From positions 124,001 through 188,000 of the forward strand of contig NZ_MRWE01000001.1 in the NCBI RefSeq assembly GCF_002093665.1: 64,000 nt of DNA, in the 5' to 3' direction. Made by a program: the position numbers and the translations under genes. Below are positions 4,498 through 49,916 of the stretch, in pieces; the stretch's first letter is position 1, and every line of letters begins with the position of its first letter. The DNA is from Rouxiella badensis (GTDB taxonomy: Bacteria > Pseudomonadota > Gammaproteobacteria > Enterobacterales > Enterobacteriaceae). The notes beneath the pieces were generated by a model. It was not told the DNA's origin. It saw only the letters and a program-made list of their open reading frames with translations, and searched no databases.

Positions 4498-5484
4498 TTA
4501 GCCGCCAATAAATGAGAGGTTCTGCGTCATGCCGGTATTGCCCTGATGCAGGAAGTGGGTCTGTTTCTTGCGTCCCAGTCCACCTTGGATCCGCGCCATG
4601 AGCGCTTCCTGCTGCTGGTCATCGGCCAGTAAATCACGCAGAGGAATACCCTGCTCACCAAACAGGCACAGGTGCAGATTGCCAACGGCCGAGACGCGCA
4701 GGCGGTTGCAGGTGGCGCAAAAATCCTTCTCATAGGGCATGATCAGACCGATTTCGCCAATGTAGTCGGGGTGAGTAAAGACCTGAGCCGGACCATCGCT
4801 GCGGCTGCGGCCCATCAGCGTCCAACCCTGCTGCACCAGTTGGTCACGAATGACCTGACCCGATACGTGATGCTTGCGGAAAAGGGAACCCCCGTCGCCA
4901 GTTTCCATAAGCTCGATAAAGCGTAGCTGAATTGGGCGGTCTTTGATCCAGTTGAGGAAGGTCTGGAGGCTATTATGATTCACGTCGCGCATCAGCACGG
5001 CGTTGACCTTAACTTTTTCGAAACCTGCGTCAAATGCGGCGTCAATTCCGCTCATCACTTCACGAAATTTATCCTGCCCGGTAATGGCGTGGAACTGACG
5101 CGCATCGAGGCTGTCAACACTGACATTGAGAGCGGTTAAACCCGCATCGCGCCATTGTGTTATGTCTCGCGCCAGGCGATAACCGTTGGTGGTCACGGCA
5201 AGATGCCGAATCTGCGGGTTTTCGCGCACGGCAGCGATGATGTCGGTAAAGTCACGGCGTAGTGAGGGTTCGCCACCGGTCAGACGCACCTTTTCGGTGC
5301 CGAGATTGGCAAAAGCGCGGCTCACCCGACGAATTTCATCGAGTGAAAGGAAACTTTTATTGTTGTGGCCATTGGGTTTATAGCCGTCGGGCAGACAATA
5401 TGTGCAACGAAAATTGCACACATCGGTGATCGACAGGCGCAAGTAATAGAACTTGCGCGCAAAAGCGTCTGTAAGTTGTTGCAC
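4498..5484 (-). CDS. moaA: GTP 3',8-cyclase MoaA (radical SAM)
   Basis: First step of molybdenum cofactor synthesis: radical-SAM conversion of GTP to 3',8-cyclo-7,8-dihydro-GTP, later rearranged by MoaC. The N-terminal cluster motif CNFRCTYC (about residues 24-31) binds SAM. A second [4Fe-4S] cluster is held by the C-terminal CATCNRLR with a later Cys in HLCLFG. The protein ends in the functionally important double glycine FIGG. The frame is open further upstream, but the start is best set at GTG 5484-5482 ([12 protein letters not shown]). This gives 328 residues (329 in E. coli), has GGAAAGG ten bases upstream, and leaves the riboswitch outside the coding region. Confidence 0.95.
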
Positions 5485-5489
5485 CTTGA

Positions 5490-5600
5490 TAACACCTTTC
5501 CAAATACGGGAGATGCGGGCATTTCTACCCAGCACCCTGGTGACATACGTCACGGCCAAGGCACCTTATTGCAGGCTGCACGATGAAATACACGGCAGAG
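5490..5600 (-). promoter_or_regulatory. Moco (molybdenum cofactor) riboswitch upstream of moaA
   Basis: The leader of moaABCDE contains, in order on the minus strand, CTCTGC, GGTGCCTTGGCCGTGAC, CACCAGGG and CTCCCGTATTTGGAAAGGTG. These are the conserved blocks I know from the enterobacterial Moco RNA motif in front of E. coli moaA. The last block includes the ribosome-binding site of moaA, so ligand binding would be expected to hide it. Identification is by recalled sequence resemblance and position; a covariance-model search would settle the boundaries. Confidence 0.85.
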
Positions 5601-5676
5601 GCAAGACAACTTAGGTACCAAGGCTAGGAGTTCAGTTTTTCCGATTTTAGTCTCCGGAAAAACACGGTTGAGCAGT

Positions 5677-42699: not shown

Positions 42700-42727
42700 G
42701 CGCGTTCAGGCGTTGCCCTGAACGCGC
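42700..42727. terminator. Strong hairpin between zitB and nadA
   Basis: GCGCGTTCAGG / CCTGAACGCGC with a six-base loop begins seven bases after the zitB stop and overlaps the last codons and stop of nadA (42706). Probably terminates or protects both convergent transcripts, though no strong T-run follows on either side. Confidence 0.6.
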
Positions 42728-43767
42728 AGCTTGAGCTGGGCCGCAAAGTCCAGCATGCGGTTTAGCGGAATTAACGATTTAACTCGCAGCGCTTCCTCAA
42801 CCTGTATCTCGTGCTGACTTCCCCCCTGCTCCAACCCTTCTGCAATCGCCTTCAGGCCGTTCATCGCCATCCACGGACAATGTGCACAGGTACGACAGCT
42901 TGCCCCTTCACCGGCAGTCGGTGCGGCAAACAGCTCTTTGTCTGGACACGCCTGCTGCATCTTGTAGAAGATACCGCGATCGGTGGCGACGATAAGCTTA
43001 CTGTTAGGCAGCGATTTGGCCGCCTGAATCAGCTGGCTGGTTGATCCGACGGCATCGGCCATGTCTACGATCGCCTGAGGGGACTCTGGATGCACCAGCA
43101 CGGCCGCTTCAGGGTATAAAGCTTTCATACGGGTCAGGGCTTGGGTTTTAAACTCGTCATGGACGATACAGGCCCCTTGCCAGCACAGGATATCTGCCCC
43201 GGTCTGTTTGCGAACGTAATTTCCGAGATGACGATCGGGAGCCCAGATGATTTTTTCGCCAAGACTATCAAGGTGTTCAATAAGTTCGACGGCAATACTG
43301 GAGGTGACCACCCAGTCGGCGCGTGCTTTCACTGCGGCAGAGGTGTTGGCATAAACGACGACCGTTCTGTCGGGATGGTTGTCGCAAAAGTCGGAGAACT
43401 CTTTTTCGGGGCAGCCGAGATCCAGTGAGCATTCGGCATGCAGTGTCGGCATCAGCACGGTTTTCTCGGGACTGAGGATTTTTGCCGTTTCGCCCATGAA
43501 ACGCACGCCAGCGACCAGCAGCGTTGAGGCACTGTGTTGACTGCCGAAACGCGCCATCTCGAGCGAGTCGGCCACGCAGCCACCGGTCTCTTCTGCCAGC
43601 GCCTGAATCTCGGGGTCAGTATAGTAATGAGCGACCATCACCGCATCACGCTGTTTAAGGAGCCTTTTAATCTTTTCTTTATAAAAGGTTTTCTCGTCGT
43701 CGCTCAAAGAGGCGGGTTTAGGAGGGAAAGGATAAACCGCCGCGTTCAGGTCCAGTGTCTCACTCAT
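42706..43767 (-). CDS. nadA: Quinolinate synthase NadA
   Basis: Condenses iminoaspartate with dihydroxyacetone phosphate to quinolinate for de novo NAD synthesis, using a [4Fe-4S] cluster. The 353-residue E. coli-type protein contains [27 protein letters not shown] (about 40-66) and conserved Cys in [11 protein letters not shown] (about 110-120). [15 protein letters not shown] (about 192-206) and the C-terminal [10 protein letters not shown] (about 291-300) follow. A NadR-type operator lies upstream. Confidence 0.97.
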
Positions 43768-43853: not shown

Positions 43854-44211
43854 AAATACTCCGATGACAGATAAATGTCGCTGTAATTTTATGCTAATTC
43901 GTGATTTTGTTTAAGCGGCTTAAAATTTAACAAATGAAGTGACGATTTATTATCGTGATTCGCATATTCGGGTTGTGAAGTTTGAAGGATCGTGGACTTG
44001 AGCTCAAGGTTGCCGCTTTTGGTTTGATACTCATATTGACGGTATCAGGGCGGCGCAGAACGAAGTGATGAGGAACGATGTTATTCCGAATCCGCAGTGA
44101 AGGGACAGCGAAGCGGCGCGACCTGCGCCAGGCGAAGTCGTAACTGAAACGTACTCATCCTTCTGCCTCGGTCATCTCAAGATAACAAGGAGGAGGATTC
44201 ACAAAGGGAAT
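43854..44211. other. Unassigned region between nadA and the tRNA-Lys repeat array
   Basis: No gene is seen. The nadA promoter side is AT-rich to about 43975. From about 43990 to 44190 the DNA becomes GC-rich with short repeats like gcgaagcggcgcgacctgcgcc. These resemble the composition of the adjacent array spacers and could be older, decayed array units. Confidence 0.4.
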
Positions 44212-44414
44212 GGTCTTGAATTCCTCTTGTGTCGGTCTGGGCCAATGCCCAGTAGGCGCAACGCGTTCGCGTTGTCGTCTCGCTTCGCTCGGCTCGAACC
44301 AGAACGCAGCTTCTCATCCACACGACGCGAGGGATCTGCTGCTTTAGAGCTAGGGAATAATTTCGCAGACCCTGAAACGCAAAAAACGCCCGTTAGGCGC
44401 TTTTTTCTTAGAAG
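44212..44414 (-). repeat. Degenerate 203-bp unit of the tRNA-Lys array
   Basis: Same length and order as the two intact 203-bp units. The landmark GCAACGCGTTCGCG lies at the same offset (46 bases) and a terminator is at the same place (44381-44406). The first 45 bases have diverged and the tRNA 3'-end copy is lost. Confidence 0.7.
44381..44406 (-). terminator. Array terminator 3
   Basis: Stem CGCC/GGCG extended by A6/T6, identical to the terminators in the two following units; usable on either strand. Confidence 0.75.
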
Positions 44415-44617
44415 TGGTGGGTCGTGCGGGATTGATTCGGCCTTTGGCCTCACCCTGCGGGCAACGCGTTCGCGTTGTCGTCTCGCTTCGCTCGGCTCGA
44501 ACCTGAACGCAGCTTCTCATCCACACGACGCGAGGGATCTGCTGCTTTAGAGCTATGGAACAATTTCGCAGACCCTGAAACGCAAAAAACGCCCGTTAGG
44601 CGCTTTTTTCTTAGAAG
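44415..44617 (-). repeat. 203-bp unit of the tRNA-Lys array with 19-nt tRNA 3'-end copy
   Basis: In transcription order it holds a terminator, an AT/GC mixed stretch, and a GC-rich core shared with the tRNA spacers. The core includes the hairpins CAACGCG-AA-CGCGTTG and GGCC-AAA-GGCC. The unit ends in AATCCCGCACGACCCACCA (44433-44415), the last 19 nt of the adjacent tRNA-Lys. It is nearly identical to the next unit. Confidence 0.85.
44584..44609 (-). terminator. Array terminator 2
   Basis: Second of three copies, spaced exactly 203 bp apart. Confidence 0.75.
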
Positions 44618-44820
44618 TGGTGGGTCGTGCGGGATTGATTCGGCCTTTGGCCTCACCCTGCGGGCAACGCGTTCGCGTTGTCGTCTCGCTTCGCTCGGCT
44701 CGAACCTGAACGCAACTTCTCACCCACACGACGCGCGGGATCTGCTGCTTTAGAGCTATGGAACAATTTCGCAGACCCTGAAACGCAAAAAACGCCCGTT
44801 AGGCGCTTTTTTCTTAGAAG
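44618..44820 (-). repeat. 203-bp unit of the tRNA-Lys array directly after the last tRNA gene
   Basis: Begins (in transcription order) right after the CCA end of the third tRNA-Lys and ends with the 19-nt tRNA 3'-end copy at 44636-44618. The sequence just after the true tRNA end and just after the tRNA-end copy is the same (CTTCTAAGAAAAAAGCGCC), as expected if units arose by unequal crossing-over at the tRNA 3' end. Confidence 0.85.
44787..44812 (-). terminator. Array terminator 1, first after the last tRNA-Lys
   Basis: Stem CGCC/GGCG with A6/T6 flanks, 8 bases downstream of the tRNA CCA end. It is probably the main terminator of the tRNA operon. Confidence 0.8.
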
Positions 44821-44896
44821 TGGTGGGTCGTGCGGGATTCGAACCTGCGACCAATTGATTAAAAGTCAACTGCTCTACCAACTGAGCTAACGACCC
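44821..44896 (-). tRNA. tRNA-Lys (anticodon UUU), third copy
   Basis: A 76-base cloverleaf including encoded CCA: acceptor GGGTCGT/ACGACCC, D-arm GCTC/GAGC, anticodon loop CTTTTAA (TTT), T-loop TTCGAAT. It equals E. coli tRNA-Lys except for one base in the T-stem: the 3' strand reads CCCGC (E. coli CCTGC), giving an A51-C63 mismatch. Last tRNA of the operon in transcription order. Confidence 0.97.
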
Positions 44897-45153
44897 TCTT
44901 CTAACTGACTGACTTCTTACTACAACATTAAACAGTGGTGGGTCGTACGGGATTGATTCGGCCTCTGGCCTCACCCTTCGGGCAACGCGTTCGCGTTGTC
45001 GTCTCGCTCCGCTCGGCTCAAACCTGCTACAGGTTCTCTTACCTACGACTTAACACATTTACTACAACATTAAACAGTGGTGGGTCGTGCGGGATTCGAA
45101 CCTGCGACCAATTGATTAAAAGTCAACTGCTCTACCAACTGAGCTAACGACCC
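44897..45153 (-). repeat. 257-bp tandem unit 2: tRNA-Lys plus spacer
   Basis: One complete period containing the second tRNA-Lys (45078-45153) and a 181-base spacer. The spacer carries the shared GC-rich core and a tRNA 3'-end copy at 44954-44936 with one mismatch (GTACG for GCACG). It is almost identical to unit 1. Confidence 0.9.
45078..45153 (-). tRNA. tRNA-Lys (anticodon UUU), second copy
   Basis: Identical to the other two copies, including the A51-C63 T-stem mismatch and encoded CCA. No tRNA-Val genes are interspersed, unlike the E. coli lysT-valT-lysW cluster at this locus. Confidence 0.97.
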
Positions 45154-45410
45154 TCTTCTAACTGACTGACTTCTTACTACAACATTAAACAGTGGTGGGT
45201 CGTGCGGGATTGATTCGGCCTCTGGCCTCACCCTTCGGGCAACGCGTTCGCGTTGTCGTCTCGCTCCGCTCGGCTCAAACCTGCTACAGGTTCTCTTACC
45301 TACGACTTAACACATTTACTACAGCATTAAACAGTGGTGGGTCGTGCGGGATTCGAACCTGCGACCAATTGATTAAAAGTCAACTGCTCTACCAACTGAG
45401 CTAACGACCC
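45154..45410 (-). repeat. 257-bp tandem unit 1: tRNA-Lys plus spacer
   Basis: First unit in transcription order. The tRNA is followed by CTGTTTAATG, a GC-rich core and an exact 19-nt copy of the tRNA 3' end (45211-45193). CTGTTTAATG then recurs, before a short lead-in to the next tRNA. Confidence 0.9.
45335..45410 (-). tRNA. tRNA-Lys (anticodon UUU), first copy
   Basis: Same 76-base sequence as the other two. First tRNA of the operon, about 57 bases after the predicted transcription start. Confidence 0.97.
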
Positions 45411-45596: not shown

Positions 45597-46382
45597 CTAT
45601 TTTGAAGACAAACGTTTTTGAGCCGCTCGCGCAGATTCGGTGTTCGGGTATTGTTTAACCACTTGCTGGAACACGGCTTTCGCTTTTTCGCTCTGGCCTT
45701 TCTCCTGCATGATGATCCCTACCTTGTACATCGCGTCTGGGCTTTTCGGCGACTTCGGATAGTTTTTGACCACTACCGCAAAATAGTACGCTGCGTCATC
45801 TTTCTTACCCTTGTTGTAATACAACTGGCCGAGCCAATAATTGGCATTAGGCTGGTAAGTCGAATCCGGGTATTGCTTGATAAAAGCCTGGAAGGCAGTA
45901 ATTGCCTGATCGGGCTGTTTCTTTTCCAACGCTAATGATACAGCGTTGTTGTAGTCAGTGTCCGGATTCCCCGAGCTTGCAGGCGCGCTGCTAGCAGAAG
46001 CAGAGTCAGAACCGCTGTCAGCCGTTGCTGCACCTGCTGAAGCACCTGCAGCGGCCGCAGGGGCACTACCTGAGCTTTGCATCGAAGCTATCTGCTGGAG
46101 AATCTGGTTTTGACGATCGGTAATCTGCTTCAGCTGATATTGGCTGTCCTGGATTTGCCCACGGAGCGTCGCAATATCATTCTGGTTATCGGAGACTTGT
46201 TGCTGGAGTTGAGTTAATAGCTGGCCTTGACCGTTAGAGATACGCTCAAGGGTGGTGACTCGATCTTCTATCGAGCCGGAGCCGACATTACTGATTGGTG
46301 CCGAGGCAGTAGCGGCCCAAGGGGCCGCTACGCCAATCAGTAACGACAGACTCAACAGGTGATGTCTGAAGTTACTGCTCAT
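45597..46382 (-). CDS. cpoB: Cell division coordinator CpoB (YbgF)
   Basis: Periplasmic protein that links peptidoglycan synthesis by PBP1B with Tol-driven outer-membrane constriction. The 261 residues comprise a signal peptide (to about ATASA, residue 28), an N-terminal trimerising coiled coil (about 35-105, with repeated Gln/Ile heptads), a Ser/Ala/Gly linker and a C-terminal TPR domain (about 145-260; DYNNAVSLALEKKQPDQAI, NYWLGQLYYNKGKKDDA). It follows pal by nine bases. Confidence 0.95.
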   Translation of the reverse strand: MSSNFRHHLLSLSLLIGVAAPWAATASAPISNVGSGSIEDRVTTLERISNGQGQLLTQLQQQVSDNQNDIATLRGQIQDSQYQLKQITDRQNQILQQIASMQSSGSAPAAAAGASAGAATADSGSDSASASSAPASSGNPDTDYNNAVSLALEKKQPDQAITAFQAFIKQYPDSTYQPNANYWLGQLYYNKGKKDDAAYYFAVVVKNYPKSPKSPDAMYKVGIIMQEKGQSEKAKAVFQQVVKQYPNTESARAAQKRLSSK

Positions 46383-48557: not shown

Positions 48558-49916
48558 TTACTGAGGCTTAAAGTCTACCGGTGCATTTTTAAACACTTCA
48601 TAAACATCCTGAGACGGTGGTTTTGGGATCCTTGCCTGTCGAGCCGCTGCAATCGCTGCCTGACACAGAGCCGGATCGCCGCCCTCAGACTGAATATCTA
48701 GCAACGTACCATTCGGTGCGAGCTTGATGCGTAACGAACAGGTTTTGCCGATGTATGACTGGTAGTCATAGAAACGGCTCTTGATTGCGGCTTCAACCTG
48801 ACCAGCATAGTTGGAAATGTCCGCGCCCGATGCCCCGCTCTTCTTATTTTTACCTACACCAGCGGCTCCACCGCCACCCTTAGGTGCGTTTTTGGAGGAG
48901 GCAAGGCCACCAAACAGGTCGTCGACGTCTGCAGACTGCTTCGCCGCAGCGGCAGCGGCTTTCTTCTTGGCATCTGCTGCGGCCTTGGCAGCTGCGGCCT
49001 TCTCGGCGGCGGCTTCCTTGGCTGCGGCGGCTTTAGCTTCTTTTGCGGCAGCAGCTTTCGCTTCGGCAGCCTCTTTCGCTTCAGCCGCTTTGGCCTCTGC
49101 GGCCTGTTTAGCTTCTGCGGCTTTCGCCTCGGCGGCGGCCTGCTTCGCTTCTTCAGCTGCGGCCTTCTTCTCGGCGTCAGCAGCCGCTTTCTTGGCTTCT
49201 GCCTGTGCCTGCTTCTTGGCTACGGCCGCAGCAGCGGCATCGGCCTCTGCCTGTTTCTTGGCTTCAGCTTCAGCTTTCTTCTGCGCATCAGCCTGAGCTT
49301 TTGCCACTTTGTCGGCTTCGGCCTTAGCCTTCGCAGCAGCATCTGCTGCCTGCTTCTGTTGTTCTTTCACTGCGGCGGCTTTGGCATCAGCGGCAGCCTG
49401 TTTTGCATCTTCTGCGGCCTGTTTGGCCTCTTCAGCTGCGGCTTTCTTCTGTTGCTCGGCGGCTTGTTTAGCCTGCTCAGCAGCAGCCTGTTTCTGTTCT
49501 TGCGCCGCTTGCTTGGCAGCTTCGGCAGCCTCTTTGGCTTGCTCAGCCTTCTGCTGCTGTGCAGCCTGTTTGGCTGACTCAGCGGCTTCTTTGGCCTCTT
49601 CAGCCTTTTGCTGCTTAGCCTCTTCGGCCGCTTCTTTGGCTTCTTCAGCCTGCTGTTCAGACTTTTTCTGATGCGATTGCTGGGCGCGGTTCGCGTCAGC
49701 CTGCTGCTGTTGCTCGCGATTGTATTGCTCGACCACTGCGCCAGAATCGACCATCACGGCCGAAATATCAGTACCGCCGCCGCCGCCGCTCATACTGGTG
49801 TCCTCGTGAAGAGAACTCCAGACCAACAGGGCTATCAATATGATATGCAGAACGACCGAAACAATAACGGCGCGTTTGAGCTTATCGTTTTGTTCAGTTG
49901 CAGTTGCCTTTACCAA
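48558..49916 (-). CDS. tolA: Cell envelope integrity protein TolA
   Basis: Inner-membrane-anchored, periplasm-spanning protein energised by TolQR that acts on TolB and Pal. The 452 residues (421 in E. coli) are a TM helix (about 14-36) followed by a very long Ala/Lys/Glu/Gln-rich helical domain II (about 65-340) built of repeats such as EEAKQAA and AEAKKAA. The globular domain III contains YIGKTCSLRIKLAPNGTLLDIQ. The frame starts at TTG 49916, with GGGA eight bases upstream; no ATG or GTG is better placed, so a TTG start is likely. The extra length lies in the repetitive domain. Confidence 0.95.
   Translation of the reverse strand: MVKATATEQNDKLKRAVIVSVVLHIILIALLVWSSLHEDTSMSGGGGGTDISAVMVDSGAVVEQYNREQQQQADANRAQQSHQKKSEQQAEEAKEAAEEAKQQKAEEAKEAAESAKQAAQQQKAEQAKEAAEAAKQAAQEQKQAAAEQAKQAAEQQKKAAAEEAKQAAEDAKQAAADAKAAAVKEQQKQAADAAAKAKAEADKVAKAQADAQKKAEAEAKKQAEADAAAAAVAKKQAQAEAKKAAADAEKKAAAEEAKQAAAEAKAAEAKQAAEAKAAEAKEAAEAKAAAAKEAKAAAAKEAAAEKAAAAKAAADAKKKAAAAAAKQSADVDDLFGGLASSKNAPKGGGGAAGVGKNKKSGASGADISNYAGQVEAAIKSRFYDYQSYIGKTCSLRIKLAPNGTLLDIQSEGGDPALCQAAIAAARQARIPKPPSQDVYEVFKNAPVDFKPQ

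Follow-up and report, generated by a model that had tools for sequence, protein, structure and literature searches.

Results

Three tRNA-Lys genes and five repeats lie between cpoB and nadA

The window, i.e. the whole stretch of 64,000 nucleotides that was analysed, carries on its minus strand three tRNA-Lys(UUU) genes of identical sequence, which recur with a period of 257 bp and are flanked upstream by pal-cpoB and downstream by nadA, as assigned with NCBIfam models above their cut-offs (Table 1). Two 181-nt spacers separate the tRNA genes, and the last gene is followed by two 203-bp units and a decayed third one. Within this tRNA operon, spacers and units hold several copies of one repeat, whose 3' end (the tail) copies the last 19 nt of the tRNA; the copy is exact in three elements, carries a single mismatch in element 2 and is lost in element 5. 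An initial annotation, made from the letters alone, had placed the tRNA genes, the period, the units and the tails at the positions that we find from the sequence and with ARAGORN. It had also described two core hairpins, and both were located in the window elements, one as CAACGCG-AA-CGCGTTG and the other in the form GGCC-NNN-GGCC. The direct repeat extends beyond the 19-nt tail into a trailer (CTGTTTAAT... or CTTCTAAG...), and the same trailer is found behind the tRNA and behind the tails. Since the window comes from a 72-contig draft, the exact count of units is uncertain.

Table 1. Features of the tRNA-Lys array and its neighbours (window positions)
Feature	Position	Strand	Evidence
tRNA-Lys(UUU) gene 1	45335..45410	-	ARAGORN; RF00005
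TLR/RtT element 1, spacer type	45193..45320	-	RF00391, 61.8 bits
Tail 1, exact AATCCCGCACGACCCACCA, equal to tRNA-Lys positions 58-76	45193..45211	-	sequence
tRNA-Lys(UUU) gene 2	45078..45153	-	ARAGORN; RF00005
TLR/RtT element 2, spacer type	44936..45060	-	RF00391, 61.4 bits
Tail 2, 18/19 nt equal to the tRNA 3' end	44936..44954	-	sequence
tRNA-Lys(UUU) gene 3	44821..44896	-	ARAGORN; RF00005
Terminator-like hairpin 3' of the last tRNA	44787..44811	-	sequence; repeated at 44584-44608 and 44381-44405
TLR/RtT element 3, 203-bp unit	44618..44743	-	RF00391, 84.0 bits
Anti-tail strand GTCGTGTGGG, element 3	44723..44732	-	fold; pairs with tail 3 positions 61-70
Tail 3, exact AATCCCGCACGACCCACCA, equal to tRNA-Lys positions 58-76	44618..44636	-	sequence
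TLR/RtT element 4, 203-bp unit	44415..44540	-	RF00391, 83.4 bits
Tail 4, exact AATCCCGCACGACCCACCA, equal to tRNA-Lys positions 58-76	44415..44433	-	sequence
Decayed TLR element 5, lacking its tail and final hairpin	44204..44337	-	RF00391, 34.6 bits
cpoB, upstream neighbour	45597..46382	-	NF008068 above cut-off; CpoB thermometer RF02782
nadA, downstream neighbour	42706..43767	-	TIGR00550 above cut-off

The kinship with the E. coli rtT repeats that had been suspected was borne out by a search with the Rfam RtT model (RF00391, gathering score 45 bits), whose threshold is passed by four of the five units, the decayed one lying below. The array consists of tRNA-linked repeats (TLRs), a group that also includes E. 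coli rtT and that Rfam models as RtT. We reject chance as the origin of the array. A terminator-like hairpin, AAAAAGCGCCU-AAC-GGGCGUUUUUU, stands 3' of the last tRNA, of tail 3 and of tail 4; the copy next to the tRNA was folded and has an ordinary energy (z -0.87, with 36 of 200 shuffles equally good). The consensus promoter/terminator scan of the array region returned no terminator and one promoter-like site, on the opposite strand. The four intact elements themselves fold only modestly better than shuffles, with z from -1.22 to -1.59.

Three further observations concern the surroundings. A fourth identical tRNA-Lys copy, without a repeat, lies elsewhere in the same genome (G000:C26:42347-42422). 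A Molybdenum cofactor riboswitch (RF01055, 89.7 bits) is found at window positions 5477-5642, and short tandem repeats cluster at 48976-49650, where the DNA may code for a protein stretch rich in alanine, as in tolA.

The array belongs to a known family without functional explanation

Knowledge of TLRs goes back to 1978 (Egan & Landy 1978, Rudd 1999, and rtT/rttR at tyrT-tyrV, all as given in PMC8144298). In the sections of PMC8144298 devoted to them, E. coli K-12 is reported to have 22 TLRs at ten loci, each with a 3' end that agrees fully, over 18-19 bp, with the tRNA or 5S gene directly before it, and the repeats are described there as being without known function. Other sources touch on the family in passing: RtT is stated to contain a tandem GA motif (PMC7657543), some BIME elements are said to resemble rtT (PMC2965389), and the 1991 rtT paper is cited in PMC11623569. 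The window array shares with the K-12 TLRs the tRNA-identical 3' end, the tandem units, the hairpin core and the match to RF00391, and is a fresh example of this known family. It differs in its genus, in its set of three tRNA-Lys genes with periods of 257 and 203 bp, and in standing at what is, judged from 55 other tRNAs, the only TLR locus of its genome, to be compared with the ten loci given for K-12 in PMC8144298. When the 55 other tRNAs of the window's genome (30 stretches; for one tRNA, at a contig end, the downstream side was out of view) were searched, no tail copy was found save one match with 3 mismatches that falls outside RF00391.

The closest counterpart is the E. coli lysT-valT-lysW-valZ-lysY-lysZ-lysQ operon, which occupies the same locus in K-12 (pal-cpoB-[lysT ... 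lysQ]-nadA) and contains five Lys-tailed elements. The initial annotation had seen in the window an independent counterpart of rtT built on tRNA-Lys; membership in RF00391 and the Lys-tailed elements between cpoB and nadA in K-12 contradict this, and we reject a parallel invention at tRNA-Lys. Position makes a common Lys ancestor of the two sets of elements likely. The cores do not by themselves demonstrate such a descent: similarity of the window elements to K-12 cores is low, and the best match (0.60) is a Tyr and not a Lys element. Besides, four of the five elements of the E. coli operon are short, their tail ending 98-100 nt past the tRNA, and have no T-stem-like hairpin, unlike the window elements. 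The array also resembles RrA, RrB and RrF, in which the tail copies the upstream stable RNA and the element is placed after a terminator, here a terminator-like hairpin; these three are 5S-linked and their interaction with CsrA and Hfq is reported in PMC8144298.

Tails follow the upstream tRNA far beyond the genus

RF00391 was searched at E <= 0.001 in three overlapping samples and matched 62 of 295 genomes of the order, 51 of 274 of the class (the window's own included) and 39 of 299 of the phylum, 24 of the latter coming from one family outside the class. Because the Rfam model itself does not answer whether a tail follows the tRNA just upstream, we compared the two directly in elements chosen by Rfam alone, accepting up to 4 mismatches in 19 positions. 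At the order level, outside the genus, the tail matched the upstream tRNA in 21 of 26 genomes (29 fetched of the 62 matching; 3 were left uncounted for lack of a tRNA within reach upstream). Agreement was found in 35 of 40 Rfam matches at the class level (46 fetched of 50, own genome excluded; 6 without upstream tRNA uncounted), and for the family outside the class the figure was 13 of 16 (20 fetched of 24; 4 likewise uncounted). Of the control comparisons, made with tails of other amino acids, 20% reached this level in the order set (fixed end), as did 84 of 994 among the class elements and 0 of 136 among those of the phylum set. Comparison of the sequences thus indicates that tails follow the adjacent tRNA. 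An earlier tail-identity score of 82/83 was set aside in favour of the Rfam-chosen sets, as those elements had been picked by tail similarity, which makes the score circular.

The tRNAs with tail-matched Rfam elements are Lys, Tyr, Pro, Ser, Gln, Glu and Asp, and Arg elements turn up when searching by tail. The 35 class-level cases span 28 family labels, outside the window's order. A literature search, with subscription journals largely outside its reach, returned no paper describing so wide a spread of RtT or TLRs. Two particular cases may be recorded here: in L099 (genome G272) a tRNA-Ser(GGA) is followed by eight tail copies spaced 171-174 bp, and L274-L293, from the family outside the window's class, comprise RtT elements whose tails are of the Ser, Gln and Asp types.

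Tails with more than 4 mismatches in 19 amount to 5 of 26 in the order, 5 of 40 in the class and 3 of 16 in the phylum set. Within the genus, 23 Rfam matches include two such tails, in L005 (the decayed unit of the window) and L019. In L029, L040, L050, L209 and L288 the start of the tail is kept or a small deletion is seen, and L049 has a Lys copy despite an intervening Val tRNA; the further mismatched elements are L195, L213, L230, L270, L285 and L287.

Co-variation links the tail to the 5' strand that pairs with it

That the tail pairs with a 5' strand within the repeat is already part of the Rfam RtT model. We refer to this strand as the anti-tail and to the helix as P1. In the fold of element 3, P1 is formed by GUCGUGUGGG with CCCGCACGAC, the latter being positions 61-70 of the tRNA copy; P1 of element 4 is one pair shorter, and it is poor in elements 1 and 2. 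The window tRNA-Lys has an A51-C63 mismatch in its T-stem, and elements 3 and 4 present a G opposite C63. In these two elements the anti-tail thus complements the tail and is no copy of the tRNA's own strand.

Free duplex energies gave a weak test, the own tail being best in 48 of 83 elements and in 0 of 8 Pro elements, and were too permissive; they were replaced by tests in a fixed register, set by the motif GG.T-GAGAA and its variants. The order set started from 162 tail matches, of which 13 were removed (Ala, more than 1 mismatch, or too short); the remaining 149 were reduced to 83 by a 90% redundancy filter, and 54 of these could be anchored. Among the 83 are two entries labelled Arg(TCG), which ARAGORN had called on the strand opposite to Arg elements. 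Over positions 61-70 of the 54 elements, 422 of 540 positions are paired, as compared to 347.9 +- 8.2 with permuted tails (1000 permutations, maximum 371; two registers allowed for real and permuted tails alike), relatedness among elements being uncorrected in this and the following permutation figures. The excess is smaller without register shift (484 vs a mean of 425.9, with a maximum of 463 in 2000 permutations), where the own tail is strictly best in 22 of 54 elements and tied in 6. The separate class/phylum set, 48 tail-matched elements of 66 fetched, a few of them visibly mis-anchored, gave 378 of 480 vs 315.3 +- 6.8 (1000 permutations, maximum 341; three registers allowed for real and permuted). 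These two sets argue strongly, though uncorrected for phylogeny, that anti-tail and tail co-vary.

The same pattern can be followed within one operon of a congener, G004. Four repeats behind a tRNA with A69 have the anti-tail GTCGT, and one spacer repeat behind the next tRNA, with G69, has TCCGT; three units behind the third tRNA, also G69, are unpaired at 68-69. The core strand just 5' of GGTTCGA also tracks the 5' strand of the tRNA T-stem, with 119 of 177 matches vs 77.0 +- 4.3 (59 elements), or 33 matches vs 20.3 +- 3.0 when 24 distinct cases are taken. A MAFFT/RNAalifold alignment did not recover P1 and paired this T-stem-like strand with the tail instead, for which reason the alignment was not used for P1.

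Counts of G-U against A-C were considered as a discriminator between RNA and DNA and dropped, since the cores equal shuffled cores and the finders disagree. In P1 the counts are 23 v 16 (order set) and 15 v 18 (class/phylum set); they do not display the surplus of G-U that selection on an RNA helix would lead one to expect, but decide neither way. In the core they are 8 v 17 by the MAFFT/RNAalifold alignment and 9 v 4 by a stricter finder. The core hairpins comprise 1959 Watson-Crick, 15 G-U, 26 A-C and 57 other pairs, shuffled cores give 16 G-U v 24 A-C, and tRNAs, by the same finder, 26 v 14.

Repeats are mostly inherited with their tRNA

Nearest cores were determined for 76 of 115 cores compared. 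For 68 of the 76 the nearest belongs to the same tRNA of a different genus and for 2 to a different tRNA within the genome; 6 are ties. Since the same-tRNA pool was larger, the comparison was run with pools of equal size, and the figures become 57 vs 19, with a mean core similarity of 0.613 (same tRNA) vs 0.513 (same genome). These comparisons suggest that in most cases a TLR is passed on along with its tRNA and is multiplied in place, although there are exceptions; occasional transfer between tRNA types of a genome may occur, and recent hopping of cores between tRNA types in one genome finds little support. The four cores of the window have as nearest outside the genus a Lys element (0.81), then a Tyr element of the genome that holds this Lys element (0.71-0.74). 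The same core is also found in Serratia sp. M24T3, at the end of contig011.

Comparison of unit numbers among congeners had been proposed, and it revealed variation. RtT matches occur in four of six genomes of the genus. The window has 2+3 units (one decayed), and two congeners have 4+1+3 and 0+1+2, each assembled in 2 contigs. The two others have no repeat at this locus: G001 has three tRNA-Lys genes with 57-58 nt spacers and G002, a draft, one tRNA-Lys gene. The repeat is therefore dispensable there. Two Lys elements, L102 and L104, are hybrids: they open with the anticodon arm and T-stem 5' strand of tRNA-Lys, and the repeat core sets in right after GGTTCGA, as if tRNA and repeat had recombined in the T-loop.

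Discussion

Each repeat can be read as a module made of a 5' anti-tail strand, several hairpins and a copy of tRNA positions 58-76. P1 would then correspond to the 3' strand of the T-stem (61-65) and the first part of the acceptor 3' strand (66 to about 70), and, ending in ACCA, would offer a tRNA-like 3' end in which a hairpin core takes the place of the T-loop. The enzymes of tRNA 3' maturation, which cleave just downstream and trim to the CCA, would also act after each repeat, so that a read-through transcript would be cut after the repeats and short RNAs released. With terminator-like hairpins before elements 3 to 5, expression of these elements would depend on read-through, as PMC8144298 proposes for RrB, for which it also names RNase E as possibly recognising the copied end or repeat.

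We consider it probable that the TLR array serves in this way as a processing module, as P1 together with ACCA recreates a tRNA end and the trailer is the same after tails and tRNA. The slight gain in fold energy over shuffles, the poor P1 of elements 1 and 2, the unpaired positions 68-69 in G004, the dispensability of the repeat at the locus and the G-U counts of P1 speak against it. Transcription of the array, its part in processing and a possible use of what is released are what we infer from the sequence comparisons. The release of CCA-ended small RNAs, already envisaged in the initial annotation, is plausible, since the 3' end of RrB was mapped 3 nt beyond the copied tail (in the data on RrB in PMC8144298) and the RtT-family RNAs Arrc20/21 of Actinobacillus give Northern signals (in the entries for these RNAs in PMC4986893).

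The array might instead be idle, a by-product of recombination in which the direct repeat of tRNA 3' end and trailer drives gain and loss of units and gene conversion homogenises the tails with the tRNA; we hold this account to be rather unlikely. The differing unit numbers within the genus, the hybrids joined at GGTTCGA and a 175-bp VNTR listed at rtT (among the loci of PMC2658671) are in its favour. By itself it leaves unexplained why, in two data sets, anti-tails vary together with tails and why the T-stem-like strand tracks the tRNA, although such a pattern might be imitated by hairpin-directed copying (quasipalindrome correction).

We regard it as improbable that the released repeat RNA acts in trans by regulating targets or titrating CsrA or Hfq. 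Such a role would fit the Hfq and CsrA interactions of RrA, RrB and RrF and the Arrc20/21 signals mentioned above. However, the parts of PMC8144298 that bear on this question give scores below 0.01 in a CsrA-sponge predictor for 19 tRNA-linked E. coli TLRs, modest phenotypes for RrA, RrB and RrF, and the retraction in 1994 of the 1991 claim that rtT acts in the stringent response.

Very unlikely, in our judgement, is a palindromic element acting at the DNA level, perhaps once mobile, that targets the T-loop and 3' end of tRNA genes and whose hairpins function as DNA. The region around 58/59 in the T-loop is a site where many integrases recombine, the repeat joins the tRNA copy at position 58/59, and it is present at many tRNA types. 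The mostly Watson-Crick core hairpins with few G-U pairs seemed to point the same way, but shuffled cores have the same ratio, and the failure of this argument led us to rate the DNA-level element lower; the nearest cores at the same tRNA in other genera and the transcription of family members (as treated in PMC8144298) also weigh against it.

To return to the processing module, the kind of repeat was already known, and what is new here is that its 5' strand follows the tRNA and that tail-matched elements are so broadly distributed. Anti-tail and tail change together across several kinds of tRNA, which suggests that it is the pairing that is kept, and not merely a copied end. Tail-matched elements under 28 family labels of the class outside the window's order, and in one family outside the class, point to a greater age of the repeat family than the consulted literature on E. 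coli and Enterobacterales implies. We tentatively put forward, as a possibility falling somewhat short of an even chance, that TLRs are ancient mimics of tRNA ends, present well beyond Enterobacterales in Pseudomonadota, in which a copy of the host 3' end and a complementary strand that evolves anew with it would provide a second "acceptor end" for 3' processing.
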